This document shows, in pieces, positions 36,917-41,483 of a stretch of 64,000 nt of DNA. The notes under the pieces are model-generated. The model saw only the letters and a list, made by a program, of their open reading frames with translations. It was not told the origin of the DNA and made no database searches. Each line of letters begins with the position of its first letter. Position 1 is the first letter of the stretch. The translations under genes were made by a program, and so were the position numbers. The stretch is from Bacillota bacterium (GTDB lineage Bacteria; Bacillota; Bacilli; Alicyclobacillales; SLC66). Where the stretch lies: positions 87,812 through 151,811 of the forward strand of contig JAJZCW010000004.1 in the NCBI GenBank assembly GCA_021828865.1, given 5' to 3'.

Positions 36917-38020
36917 TTAAAAAGTAATTGAAGCGACCAATGCGCCAACAAACGCGAGGAGCGCAACGGATGATGCCAAAAATACCAATATCCGCCAAGA
37001 GAATACTCGGCGTACCATCAACATAGACGGAAGGCTGATCACTGGCAAACTGAACATCAATGCTGCAGCAGGTCCATAACCAAGCCCAAATGACAAAAGC
37101 GTCTGAACAATGGGTATTTCTCCTGCAGTGGGAATCACAAACAATGTCCCGGATATGGCAAATAGGATCATCACCGGTATGCTGTCTGCCCACGTTGCTG
37201 GTATGGCAGGAAACAACCAAGCCCGAATTGCCCCTAGTATGAGCACACTGATGATGTAAGCGGGGAGAATGCCAATCAGCATTTTGCCAATCGCTTTAAG
37301 CCAGCGTATCATCAAATTGCCTTTATCTTCTGCTGCCATTTTATTCATGGCTCCACTCATCTTTTCGATGTTTTCCGTGGAGGCCTGCGAGAAGCGGTTG
37401 GCTAGATGGCTAATGCCAAATACCAAAATAATGCCTAAAACAATGCGAAGCAGCGTGAATTTCCATGAAAGAACAAAAGTCATAAACACTAAAACCGCAG
37501 GATTCAGCGCAGTGTTACCTAGCCAAAAAGCCGTAGCTGCACCGACAGATACAGAATTCTTTCGAAGCCCCACTACCAGTGGAGCGGTACAACAAGTTCA
37601 CATCATGCCAGGCAAAGAAGAAACGCCTGCGATCCAAGTGCTCGTATAGCGATTGGATCCAAGAAGTCTCACCATCCAATCGCGGGGAATCAGCACCTGA
37701 ACGAGTGACCCTAGTAATACCGACACGATGAGTGCTTTATAAATGGCGTTAAAATACGAAAGACTATAATCCCAGGCTGCGTGCCAGGACGGAGGTTCCG
37801 AAACGGCACTCTTCCCAGAAATGATAGAACTACCAATCGAGTGCTTTGCAGCAGCCACAAAAGCCTTTTGATAGTAAGGATTCCACTTTGCCCAGTAGAG
37901 TCCAATCGCTGCAATCGCTAAAAATAGAATAACACCCAGCCACTTTTTAGCTGATGAATGATCTTGTGCCGGGGACGTAGGCACTGAGACAGGACTAGCC
38001 ACGCCATTCCTCCTTTTCAT
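36917..38020 (-). CDS. YraQ/ArsP-like permease with an in-frame UGA at a conserved Cys position
   Basis: The frame encodes 367 residues if the TGA at 37600-37598 is read through. Before it, residues 1-140 hold two or three membrane helices and end LGSNRYTSTWIAGVSSLPGMM. Directly after it, in the same frame, comes TCCTAPLVVGLRKNSVSVGA, then AFWLGNTALNPAVLVF and more helices. YraQ-type permeases (PF03773) conserve a cysteine cluster after SLPGM, so the UGA stands where a Cys is expected. No frameshift or other stop is present. A hairpin 12 nt after the UGA makes selenocysteine decoding conceivable; a recent nonsense mutation is the alternative. YraQ/ArsP-type proteins are linked to export of metalloid or small anionic compounds. 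Neighbours give no help. Confidence 0.7.
37567..37600 (-). promoter_or_regulatory. candidate bacterial SECIS element after the in-frame UGA
   Basis: Reading the mRNA: UGA, 12 nt, then GCUCCACU, loop GGU, then AGUGGGGC. The 8-bp stem has one G-U pair. The apical loop starts with G and lies 20 nt from the UGA, inside the range I recall for bacterial SECIS models. The hairpin lies within conserved coding sequence, so chance formation is possible. Confidence 0.45.
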
Positions 38021-38079: not shown

Positions 38080-39807
38080 TTAAAGTACAAATTGCGAGAG
38101 TGATTGCTGCAGATCAAGCGCCAATTTATTCAAGGATGCTGAAGAGGCAGTAATTTCCTCCATCGACGCGAGCTGCTCTTGTGAAGAGGCAGCCACGTTT
38201 TGTGCTTCTCCGCTCGCTTTCTCAGAAATAATCGCAATATCCTCCATCGTGCGAGTAATATCCTTCATGGTAGTGGCAATTTCTTCAGATCCCGCCGTTA
38301 ATTCCTGAACTTGTAGGGATACCGATTGTGTGGCTTTCAGTATATTTGCAAATGCTTGTCCTGCCCTAACGATCACTTCTAGTCCCTGAGTGGTTTCGCG
38401 GTTTACCTTTGTCATTGAGGATACTGACATGGTGGTATTGGTTTGAATGTCTTCTATCAGTTTGGTAATCTCTTTAGCGGAGGATGCTGACTGTTCTGCC
38501 AGTTTCCTCACCTCTTCCGCAACAACAGCAAACCCTTTCCCCTGTTCACCAGCTCTCGCCGCCTCAATGGCCGCATTTAACGCAAGCAGATTGGTCTGTT
38601 CTGCAATTCCAGTAATCGTTGATATGATCTGCCCAACCTGCTCGGAATAGTCATGTAGAATTTTGATTAGACTGGATGTTTGTTCTACTGACTGATTGAT
38701 TGATTCCATTTGCGATACCGCTTCCGTCACGGAAAGATTTCCACTTTCGGCCAATTTCGCTGTTTCACTGGATGCATGGTAAACATTATTTGATGTGGAT
38801 GCCACCATCTGTATACGCTTCGCAACAGCCTCGATGGTATTAGCGCCATTTCTTGTGCTTGCCATTTGCCGATCTGCGCCACTTGCCACTTCTTGAATGG
38901 AAGAAGCGATCAGGCTAGTTGCTTTAGCAGTTTCATCCGCGCTAGCCGTTAATTGCTCTGAAGCAGCCGCTACATGCTCTCCTGTATCAGCAACGCTAGA
39001 GATCAAATGTTTCAGTTGATTGCTCATTTCGTTAGTGGATTCCGCCAAAGTAGCGATTTCATCCGATCCTATTACTGGTACACTTTCCCCTGTCAGATTT
39101 CCTCCTGCAACAAGTTTGAGCTTCTTCGAAATCACAGGAATTGGCGCTACGACACGACGAAAATAATACAACAGAACAAGGTTGATAATCACCAGCACTG
39201 CTTCACCGATCATACTGACAATTTGCATGGTATTTGCACTCTGCACCGTTGTTGAAGCAGAGGTGGACATCAGTTGATGAGTAGATTTCTCAAGCGCAAT
39301 CAAATCATTGGTAAAGACATTCGAAGCACTCGAATTGTTAACGAGAATATCTGCCGCTGCCTGATTGGTTTTCCCCTGCTTAACGAAATGTAATGCCTTG
39401 TTGAAATAATTCTCGTAGGGTACGGAATCTACTTTGGCCTTTTGCACTTCTTGCAAAATGGCTGGTGTAGGTGCCATTGAGATCAATTTGATTAAGTCTT
39501 GGTTCATGGTTTGCTGTCCCTCTGTAACTACCTGCAAAGTCCCGTTTGCCAAATGTTGATAGCCCGGAATTGCAGCATCCGCAATCCATACATTGGCTTG
39601 TCCATCCATCGTATAAAAGCCATTTTCCAATAAATCATTGACAGTGTTGGAAAAAGTAATCACTTTCGTCTGTAAATTAGTCGCATTTGTCGTGATTCGA
39701 TTGTTAAACAGCAAAACAACGACTAAGTTGCCGATGATTACTGCGAAAATAATTAATATCACGCCCGTGATGCGGGTGACAAAACTGCTTTTCCATTTAG
39801 AAAACAT
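38080..39807 (-). CDS. methyl-accepting chemotaxis protein, two-helix membrane type
   Basis: A 575-aa chemoreceptor. Helix 1 (residues ~12-34), a ~160-residue extracellular helical sensor domain, helix 2 (~192-214), HAMP, and a cytoplasmic signalling domain ending [10 protein letters not shown]. The tip contains [21 protein letters not shown] and [18 protein letters not shown]. Its sensor domain resembles that of the receptor upstream of narK in length and in phrases such as [14 protein letters not shown] versus [14 protein letters not shown], suggesting paralogy. ATG follows AAGGAGAGAAACAAAGC. An insertion sequence ends 61 bp upstream of the start, so its native promoter may be displaced or partly lost. 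Confidence 0.93.
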
Positions 39808-39868
39808 GCTTTGTTTCTCTCCTTCATGTGACGCGTTCTATCTTCTTCTCATTCAAAATGTCGAAAAT

Positions 39869-39888
39869 ATAATTGAGCGTTTTGCAGA
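39869..39888 (+). repeat. left terminal inverted repeat of the IS
   Basis: Reads ATAATTGAGCGTTTTGCAGA, the exact reverse complement of bases 41322-41341. Confidence 0.9.
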
Positions 39889-40005
39889 ATCGATCGACCG
39901 CGTGATGCGAAAAACGATCACTGTTCAGTCGATAGATGGAGTTTACAATATTTACAACACATTGGTCACGATCCACAGCACCGTTGGTTCTAGATCATCA
40001 ATGTC

Positions 40006-41208
40006 TTACGCTGTTCTCTTCACTTGGGTTACCTTGCTCATCGCGAGTGCAGATGCCAGTAACACAATCGCGTTCAGGTACACGGCGGCGGTGACCTTCT
40101 CTATTCCACGTACGTGTAAATCGTTCACCATCAGATATTCCTTAAGTCGAGCGTTACATCGCTCAACGGCAGTTCGCTCGTTGTAGAGTTCCTTCCAACC
40201 CCGCGTGTCTCGGTGTGGGTTCGCATAACGGCGAACATCCTCTGCGATCGCCTTCTTCACCACCATCCCGTAGTTCGAATCCGAGCAGGCGGCGGTGCCA
40301 AGCGGACAGTCCGTTTTCCCCACCACATGCGGACAGCGAAACTTTAGGCGATCTTTCTCGGCGCCCCAATACACCATCTCGTAACCCATCGTGCATCGAG
40401 GCGTGCCGTTCGACGCGATGCCTGCAGGTGGTTCCTTTTCACCACGCTTGTTCAGGGCAATGATCGCTTGTGCCCCATAACTACGGGCGGCTTCGTAATT
40501 CTTCACCTGATCATATCCAGCGTCCATCATCACGAACTTGACCTTCCAATCGAGATCTCCCATGACCTCTTTCATCAAGGGAATCGCCATGTCTCCGTCA
40601 TAGACGTTCGCGGGCGTGACCGCAAGCGCGATGGGCAATTCACTGTGCGTGTCCACGGCCAAGTGAATCTTGTAGCCAAACCAGGCAATTTTGTTGCCGA
40701 ACGTATCATATTTCGCGCCCCAAGTTGCATCGCCTGTGACTTGACTACGGGATTTCGGTTGTTTCTTCTCGTAGGCACGAATGGCCGTGCTGTCGATCGC
40801 CAAATGAAATGCGTCGATGATCCCTGCCTCTTTGCATTGACTGACCAGGTCAATGAACAGATTCTTGGCAAGTCCTTGCTTTACGATCTGTTTAAACACC
40901 CGACTGAGTGTGGCAATCGATGGTGCAGGTTCTTCCAAGCGAAATCCGCATTGATAACGAAACCGCAGATCCCGATCCAACCGCTGATGCAACTGCGTGA
41001 ACGTGGAGATGCCCTCCTGTGGCGCGACCAAAAACGCCCGCAGGATCGCTTCTCTGGGAATCGGTTTGGCTCCTTGAGGTGATGAACTTCTTAGTTTCAT
41101 GGCATAGGGCTGAAGATCCAGCGCCGAAAAAAATAGGTTCAACCGATCTTTGGATTCAATTTCTAGCCATTGCTCGAAGGAAAACAGCGTTTGTTGTAGA
41201 AGATACAA
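40006..41208 (-). CDS. IS transposase, DDE type
   Basis: A 400-aa transposase that cuts and joins the element's ends. An N-terminal DUF772-like region (AILRAFLVAPQEGISTFTQ) is followed by the catalytic core. The first Asp is in LAIDSTAIRAY, the second in KFVMMDAGYDQ and the Glu in the signature YNERTAVERCNARLKEY, matching the IS4/IS5-type Y-x2-R-x3-E-x6-K pattern. The cysteines in FRCPHVVGKTDCPLGTAAC resemble a zinc-binding insert of IS1182-like enzymes. No stop or frameshift is present, so it may be active. TTG start behind GAAGGGGGAAG. Family naming needs a database search. Confidence 0.9.
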   Translation of the reverse strand: MYLLQQTLFSFEQWLEIESKDRLNLFFSALDLQPYAMKLRSSSPQGAKPIPREAILRAFLVAPQEGISTFTQLHQRLDRDLRFRYQCGFRLEEPAPSIATLSRVFKQIVKQGLAKNLFIDLVSQCKEAGIIDAFHLAIDSTAIRAYEKKQPKSRSQVTGDATWGAKYDTFGNKIAWFGYKIHLAVDTHSELPIALAVTPANVYDGDMAIPLMKEVMGDLDWKVKFVMMDAGYDQVKNYEAARSYGAQAIIALNKRGEKEPPAGIASNGTPRCTMGYEMVYWGAEKDRLKFRCPHVVGKTDCPLGTAACSDSNYGMVVKKAIAEDVRRYANPHRDTRGWKELYNERTAVERCNARLKEYLMVNDLHVRGIEKVTAAVYLNAIVLLASALAMSKVTQVKRTA

Positions 41209-41210
41209 GT

Positions 41211-41278
41211 GGACTTCCCCCTTCTCAAAGGATTTTGGTTTGGTCGCTTAAATCTTCGAGAAGTTTGGGGTGAAGTCC
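41211..41278. promoter_or_regulatory. inverted repeat covering the transposase ribosome site
   Basis: GGACTTCCCCCTTCTC (41211-41226) pairs with GAGAAG-TTT-GGGG-T-GAAGTCC (41258-41278) as a ~17-bp imperfect stem. In transcripts entering from outside the element the transposase ribosome site (GGGGG at 41221-41217) is inside the stem. A transcript starting within the loop would leave it free. Confidence 0.65.
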
Positions 41279-41321
41279 TTTTCTATAACCTAAAGTCCCT
41301 TGCCCAGTCTGGGCTCAGCAA

Positions 41322-41341
41322 TCTGCAAAACGCTCAATTAT
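41322..41341 (-). repeat. right terminal inverted repeat of the IS
   Basis: Reads TCTGCAAAACGCTCAATTAT on the plus strand, exact inverse of the left end at 39869-39888. Confidence 0.9.
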
Positions 41342-41483
41342 TTTTATTGATATCTAAAATCAAACATCAGATTGGATCATATCAAACTGATGGAAAAAAA
41401 GAAATCCTGAAAATTAACTTGAGATATTAAAAAAGACACTTCGCAAGCATGATGCTCACGAAATGCCAGAAGAAAACTTACAA

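Follow-up and report, generated by a model that had tools for sequence, protein, structure and literature searches.

Introduction

The closest described systems are two related permeases with links to selenoproteins, an arsenical efflux protein and two systems tied to selenium use. ArsP, after which the Pfam family ArsP_1 (PF03773) is named, has the efflux of methylarsenite as its precedent function (PMC6205960, available part). The SO_0444 family Cu/Zn efflux transporter (NF033936) is listed as a selenoprotein with a UxC motif, annotated in GenBank, in a 2026 review, the available part of which also lists a selenocysteine (Sec) form of the YeeE/YedE family (PMC13188914). SaoE (NF040736) is another related permease; it is named after the selenoprotein-rich Sec-assisted organometallic system (SAO) and is absent from the Sec-containing Sao parts given there (PMC13188914, available part). 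YedE (TIGR04112), which the same part places in another Pfam family, PF04143, is a membrane protein that co-occurs with selD and adjoins it, and it has been proposed as a selenium-related transporter (PMC5322559, available part). The selenoneine cluster senABC is the last system of interest here, and its pathway is taken from PMC9814287.

We describe a permease gene in a window of 64,000 nucleotides, the window being the whole stretch of DNA that was analysed. The gene lies on the minus strand, and its features are as follows:

36917..38020, minus strand: ArsP_1 (PF03773) permease frame, 367 codons long and interrupted by a single in-frame TGA (PF03773 profile and translation)
37598..37600, minus strand: UGA codon 141, predicted selenocysteine (Cys column in relatives; UGA in the congener and other phyla)
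37580..37612, minus strand: subfamily motif P-x-M-M-U-[ST]-C-C-x-A-P, here PGMMUTCCTAP, residues 137-147 (67-sequence alignment)
37567..37585, minus strand: SECIS-like hairpin of 8 bp with apical loop GGU at 37577-37575 (folding and comparison)

The permease is related to SO_0444, whose NF033936 profile matches its residues 97-222, and the U-x-C motif has a counterpart, at least in local form, in U141-T-C143. However, the window permease scores 45.1 bits against the NF033936 equivalog cut-off of 300 and thus falls in another subfamily; this subfamily has a distinctive signature around a UxCC motif and is linked to selD, whereas the available part of PMC13188914 gives no selD link for SO_0444. 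The relationship to SaoE is of the same order, with 46.3 bits against an equivalog cut-off of 325. With ArsP the permease shares the family name and the column of codon 141, where 12 distant PF03773-like relatives have Cys; unlike ArsP, its subfamily tracks SelD, and no arsenic genes were recognised among 13 partly identified clusters of neighbouring genes. It resembles YedE in its co-occurrence with selD and, at part of its loci, in adjoining it. SenA and SenB, known from the senABC cluster, occur close to the permease at three loci of the UGA form, but elsewhere its company is selD and mnmH only, and it is therefore not a component specific to selenoneine.

The main text of PMC13188914 contains none of the terms PF03773, COG0701, ArsP, YraQ or DUF318. 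Neither 'permease' nor COG0701 occurs in the available part of PMC5322559, and the word permease is absent from the available parts of PMC5029168, PMC12013277, PMC2398784 and PMC9312934. No earlier mention of the window subfamily and its selenium link was found in the main-text literature searched. A preliminary description of the locus had suggested that the gene could encode an undescribed selenoprotein transporter. This would hold for the subfamily, whose window member reaches no NCBIfam cut-off in a profile search and whose selenium link was not found in print; it does not hold for the family, in which Sec is not new, the sibling SO_0444 having already been listed as a UxC protein.

A permease frame with a single in-frame UGA

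Translation of the minus strand from 38020 to 36917 yields a 367-residue frame whose only stop is TGA 37600-37598, between SLPGMM and TCCTAPLVVGL; the preliminary description was right that nothing else interrupts the frame. The product passes the PF03773 gathering score with 110.9 bits against 32.3. Because a Shine-Dalgarno-like AAGGAGG (38015-38009) sits 6 nt ahead of the GTG of codon 7 (38002-38000), translation probably starts at this GTG rather than at ATG 38020. Codons 3-9 account for 5 of the 15 upstream differences between the window permease and its orthologue in a congener. Elsewhere in the window, TGA terminates 12 of the 39 open frames of at least 250 aa; this means that TGA is an ordinary stop here and not a reassigned codon. 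In a confident AlphaFold2 model of the permease (mean pLDDT 90.4, pTM 0.88), residue 141 is located at a break just before helix 142-154.

Two observations concern the flanks of the gene. Directly past the permease stop, at 36905-36861, an inverted repeat CCGCTG...CAGCGG with a run of T resembles an intrinsic terminator. Just upstream of the permease, about 3.3 kb at 38105-41410 have no counterpart on the congener contig (L060); this stretch contains a DDE transposase gene (40006-41208) and, but for a small part, a chemotaxis receptor gene (38080-39807).

The UGA stands at a conserved cysteine position

The preliminary description expected a cysteine of the family where the TGA stands, and every close non-UGA relative examined has one: Cys occupies the column of codon 141 in 48 of 48, rows that were found with a motif admitting Cys or any stop and carried by all 68 loci. 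These 68 motif loci divide into 48 with Cys and 20 with TGA at codon 141, and neither TAA nor TAG occurs among them, although the motif is open to any stop. An alignment of 29 rows, made without the motif filter, has Cys in 27 and UGA in two, the window and the congener. In a 67-sequence alignment, into which the window row was entered with C at residue 141, the residues P137, M140, C141, C143, C144 and P147 are invariant, and M139, T142 and A146 are nearly so.

The orthologue of the congener is 96% identical and carries UGA at the same codon. Codon differences between the two number 15 synonymous and 6 non-synonymous after the UGA, and 9 synonymous and 6 non-synonymous before it. Two other congeners gave no permease match; one is 83% complete and selA positive (G002), and the other is 60% complete (G001).

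Of the 16 loci that a DNA-pattern scan for PxMMUxCCxAP across species genomes (257 billion bases) returned, 15 are homologues in frame. They comprise ten in Bacillota MAGs, one of which is the congener, three in Rokubacteria, one in Chloroflexi and one in Ammoniphilus resinae. The pattern has 19 fixed and two half-fixed bases, and because it fixes the codons around the UGA, these counts leave out divergent forms; about 0.5 chance matches were estimated and one was seen, in a genome with no selA match. Among the genomes of the 15 homologues, 14 have selA over cut-off, the exception being the congener, whose assembly is 65% complete. The class sample (398 genomes) added two more UGA rows, one identical to the Ammoniphilus gene and the other from a selA-positive genome (G546). 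The TGA is common to the congener and to relatives in other phyla: apart from the congener, the UGA form occurs at 15 further distinct loci (Bacillota, Rokubacteria and one Chloroflexi), and all 15 genomes are selA-positive. On a tree of 65 proteins, built with residue 141 masked, UGA and Cys change state 6 times (bootstrap 5-7; none of 500 shuffles is as low), which indicates that Sec and Cys were exchanged repeatedly.

Several database entries and distant genes touch on the same position. The 220-aa 'permease' of Fodinisporobacter ferrooxydans starts just past the motif and corresponds to the C-terminal half of a permease of the UGA form. Six further permease entries of 219-223 aa (P0010, P0044, P0055, P0058, P0062 and P0099) begin with MGLR or VGLR just past the motif and are likely mis-called Sec forms too, judging from where they start. 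At G644:C23:27912-28651 the permease is divided between two frames; its second piece contains a TGA, though not at the Sec position, and the gene is probably decayed. Outside the subfamily, a distant ArsP_1-like permease that is 24% identical (L085, G436:C81:44709-45524) has TGA at the family Cys, in PF-U-SCSSVP; its matched stretch of 272 residues stays below the cut-offs of SaoE (119 vs 325) and SO_0444 (111 vs 300), and it probably represents another Sec-containing subfamily.

A hairpin accompanies the UGA form

The hairpin begins 12 nt past the UGA, pairs 37585-37578 with 37574-37567 over 8 bp around the loop GGU, and places the loop 20 nt from the UGA, exactly as it was first described. 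The bSECIS model in the available part of PMC13188914 specifies a loop of 3-9 nt, a stem of 4-16 bp, a G in the first two loop positions, a distance of 16-37 nt from the UGA and an energy of -7.5 or lower; the permease hairpin fits it with a 3-nt loop, 8 bp, 20 nt and -10.8 kcal/mol. Taken on its own the hairpin is only moderately unusual: the 60-nt stretch has a z of -1.24, folds of equal or better energy arise in 18 of 200 shuffles, and random synonymous recoding yields all 8 pairs in 0.8% of draws.

Comparison lifts the hairpin far above chance. At least 7 of the 8 pairs, in the register of the window and with a GGY loop, are present in 15 of the 17 distinct UGA forms and in none of the 48 Cys forms, whose maximum is 6; the count covers the 68 motif loci, with three of the 20 UGA rows set aside as two duplicates and the one chance match. 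In the 5' arm, the scan pattern fixes only the starts of the Ala-Pro codons, and nearly all Cys forms have these bases as well, so the comparison of UGA and Cys forms is close to fair.

Among the 15 hairpin-bearing UGA forms, changes on both sides occur in 3 pairs (12 of 500 shuffles reach that) and in 7 cells (shuffled mean 1.8). The covariation score reaches 0.279, compared with 0.134 after shuffling, and none of the 500 shuffles equals either the 7 cells or this score. This set omits the two UGA forms named below and therefore leans towards structure, and shared ancestry can by itself outdo such shuffles. The pairing is lost when the partners are slid out of register, and RNAalifold gives the same structure unprompted. 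The two UGA forms without the standard hairpin, L055 and L066, can form an alternative one with loop CGUGA, at -11.6 and -8.4 kcal/mol. In a third (L098), one pair is mismatched and the core energy of -6.7 is weaker than the -7.5 of the PMC13188914 model.

The hairpin also seems to constrain the protein sequence. In the 17 UGA forms, Ala-Pro is followed by Leu in 10, Val in 5 and Pro in 2, always encoded by CTG, GTG or CCG; the 48 Cys forms have Ile there in 27, Val in 18 and Met in 3, and never Leu. From these codons, Leu, Val or Pro would seem to be forced by the recoding element at a position where the Cys forms mostly have Ile.

Sec decoding genes and the association with SelD

The genome of the window has all four components for which the preliminary description had advised a search: selA (contig C2, 600 bits), selB (contig C45, 388 bits), selD (contig C43, 401 bits, G000:C43:85996-86922, locus L010) and a tRNA-Sec with anticodon TCA (contig C2). 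Its selD is itself interrupted by an in-frame TGA (KSG-U-GCKIGP). A 7-bp stem capped by a GGC loop comes after this codon and is the same kind of element as the permease hairpin.

The close form of the permease was sought together with SelD in a class sample and a phylum sample of 398 genomes each. In the class sample, close forms match at E 1e-41 or better, are 44-62% identical besides the own gene, and are followed by a next match at 1e-17. SelD is over cut-off in 32 of the 32 carriers, which spread over 14 families, against 88 of the 366 other genomes (Fisher 8e-19); in the phylum sample, with close forms 38-55% identical, it is present in 13 of 13 carriers against 248 of 385 others (p 0.004), both tests ignoring kinship and assuming that the paired permease and SelD searches drew the same genomes. 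Altogether, SelD is found in 44 of 44 distinct tested carrier genomes of the phylum, the own genome being counted in both samples.

The association does not depend on Sec. Among 101 relatives, 16 of the 17 carriers have selA over cut-off, as do 32 of the 84 others. Of 37 carriers from outside the family and order of the window, drawn from the class and phylum samples, 23 are positive for SelA; the 14 without it all have SelD and all have the Cys form of the permease, which indicates that the subfamily follows SelD and not Sec as such. Conversely, the 88 SelD-positive genomes of the class sample that have no close form indicate that the permease is not essential to selenium use.

Gene neighbourhoods

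We compared a selection of 54 loci (16 UGA and 38 Cys forms), some of them on short contigs, leaving out the short contig of the congener. In 13 neighbourhoods the permease has a member of the SelD family no more than 4.5 kb away, next to both UGA forms (L054, a fragment, L056, L059, L062, L063 and L067) and Cys forms (L130-L133, L135, L137 and L150); NCBIfam confirms its identity in L056, L059 and L067 and the SelD search does so in six Cys loci, and the call in L054, L062, L063 and L150 comes from BLAST clustering. Going by coordinates, 10 of the 32 class carriers have SelD at most about 3 kb from the permease. In six Cys loci, SelD is followed by a rhodanese-type cluster, and the one that was scanned (L130) is MnmH/SelU over cut-off. 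At L055, L056 and L057, matches over cut-off to SenA and SenB lie close to the permease, which is of the UGA form in all three, and in one genome (G716) selA is 2.7 kb from the permease.

In total, selD, sen genes or selA lie within 4.5 kb in 16 of the 54 neighbourhoods, and the remaining 38 have none of these. The window is one of the 38: no selenium gene stands next to its permease, and a distance of about 38 kb on the same contig separates it from SelD. In 12 neighbourhoods the permease has a LysR gene nearby, and the three that were scanned come closest to a selenium-associated LysR model but stay below its cut-off. The 13 clusters shared by at least 4 of the 54 neighbourhoods, which were identified in part and with profile screening confined to longer genes, include no recognised gene for arsenic or metal resistance.

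As a separate observation, glycosyltransferases stand beside the UGA permease in L053, L059, L061 and L062. They are nearest to a 'GPMC system' model, below its cut-off, and weakly to SenB; two of the loci, L059 and L062, also have SelD nearby. These loci perhaps encode a second selenosugar-type pathway.

Discussion

Judged from the sequences compared here, the UGA at 37600-37598 is almost certainly decoded as selenocysteine. A lone TGA, if viewed in isolation, would suggest a nonsense mutation, a pseudogene or an assembly error at a Cys codon, and a fresh nonsense mutation was the alternative held by the preliminary description. This is refuted by the conserved UGA forms, and its probability is negligible: the same UGA is found in independent assemblies, in the congener, in other families and in other phyla, together with a conserved and covarying hairpin; the congeners differ past the UGA mostly by synonymous changes (15 vs 6), and no TAA or TAG takes its place in the 68 loci. 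It is very improbable that the UGA is a true stop or encodes another amino acid, leaving a truncated product or one in two pieces. The C-terminal half does stand in public databases as a separate protein of about 220 aa, yet such entries are what automatic gene calling makes at a Sec codon; moreover, the codon is not reassigned in the window, where TGA ends long frames as usual, and the piece before the UGA contains just 4 of the 15 helices predicted for the whole.

As to function, the subfamily probably has a role in selenium metabolism, and the permease itself likely transports a selenium species, as its distribution suggests. The preliminary description had suggested a Sec in a redox or metal-binding motif of a transporter; the selD link shifts the likely role away from metal binding in general towards the handling of selenium. 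It is decidedly unlikely that the protein is a selenoprotein that expels some other soft metal or metalloid (an organoarsenical, Cu, Zn or Hg), as the names of sibling subfamilies would have it, and is linked to selenium through Sec synthesis only. Such a role would fit the name ArsP_1 and the weak similarity to SaoE and SO_0444, but the protein scores far below the SaoE and SO_0444 cut-offs, and the link to SelD holds for the Cys forms without SelA (14 of 37), where Sec synthesis cannot explain it. In addition, the gene adjoins selD, mnmH, senA and senB in part of the loci, and no metal-resistance gene was recognised among the 13 neighbour clusters, incompletely identified and screened without short genes as these are. 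The same selenium-linked selenoprotein may instead work outward, as a protective exporter made at full length only when Sec-tRNA, and hence selenium, is plentiful; we consider this unlikely. Methylarsenite efflux by ArsP is a precedent, a Sec codon would tie synthesis to the selenium supply, and such a role has been proposed for the unrelated, selD-linked YedE (PMC5322559, available part). However, SelD-negative bacteria would profit from an exporter too, yet none of the 44 tested carriers is without SelD. Uptake is favoured over export, though only moderately, because the close form is absent from the tested SelD-negative genomes, whereas ridding itself of a toxic element ought to benefit a cell of any kind.

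Our preferred reading, which as a whole we hold to be slightly better than an even bet, is an ArsP_1-type permease with Sec in its UxCC motif; it would likely take a small selenium species across the membrane, most probably into the cell. We propose that SelB would bind the hairpin and deliver Sec-tRNA at the UGA. In the folded permease, Sec (or Cys) 141 and the two neighbouring cysteines would contact the substrate at the break in the membrane helix, and the selenolate or thiolate trio at residues 141, 143 and 144 would handle it; a helix break is a usual place for a substrate site. The substrate would be an inorganic or reduced selenium species at the level of selenite or selenide. It should precede selenophosphate, because it is common to the selenocysteine, selenouridine and selenoneine pathways, and its movement would most likely be inward, supplying SelD.

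In its widest form, the proposal is of a dedicated selenium transporter that accompanies SelD across users of selenocysteine, selenouridine and selenoneine, with a transport site repeatedly rebuilt with Sec and a hairpin dictating the protein; the chances for and against this whole are evenly balanced. The finding would add a membrane transporter subfamily to the selenoproteins and would explain truncated permeases in databases, such as that of Fodinisporobacter ferrooxydans. To our knowledge, no dedicated bacterial selenium transporter has been established; a permease subfamily that occurs only in SelD-positive genomes in the samples is a concrete candidate. If the proposal is true, the cell uses selenium to handle selenium.
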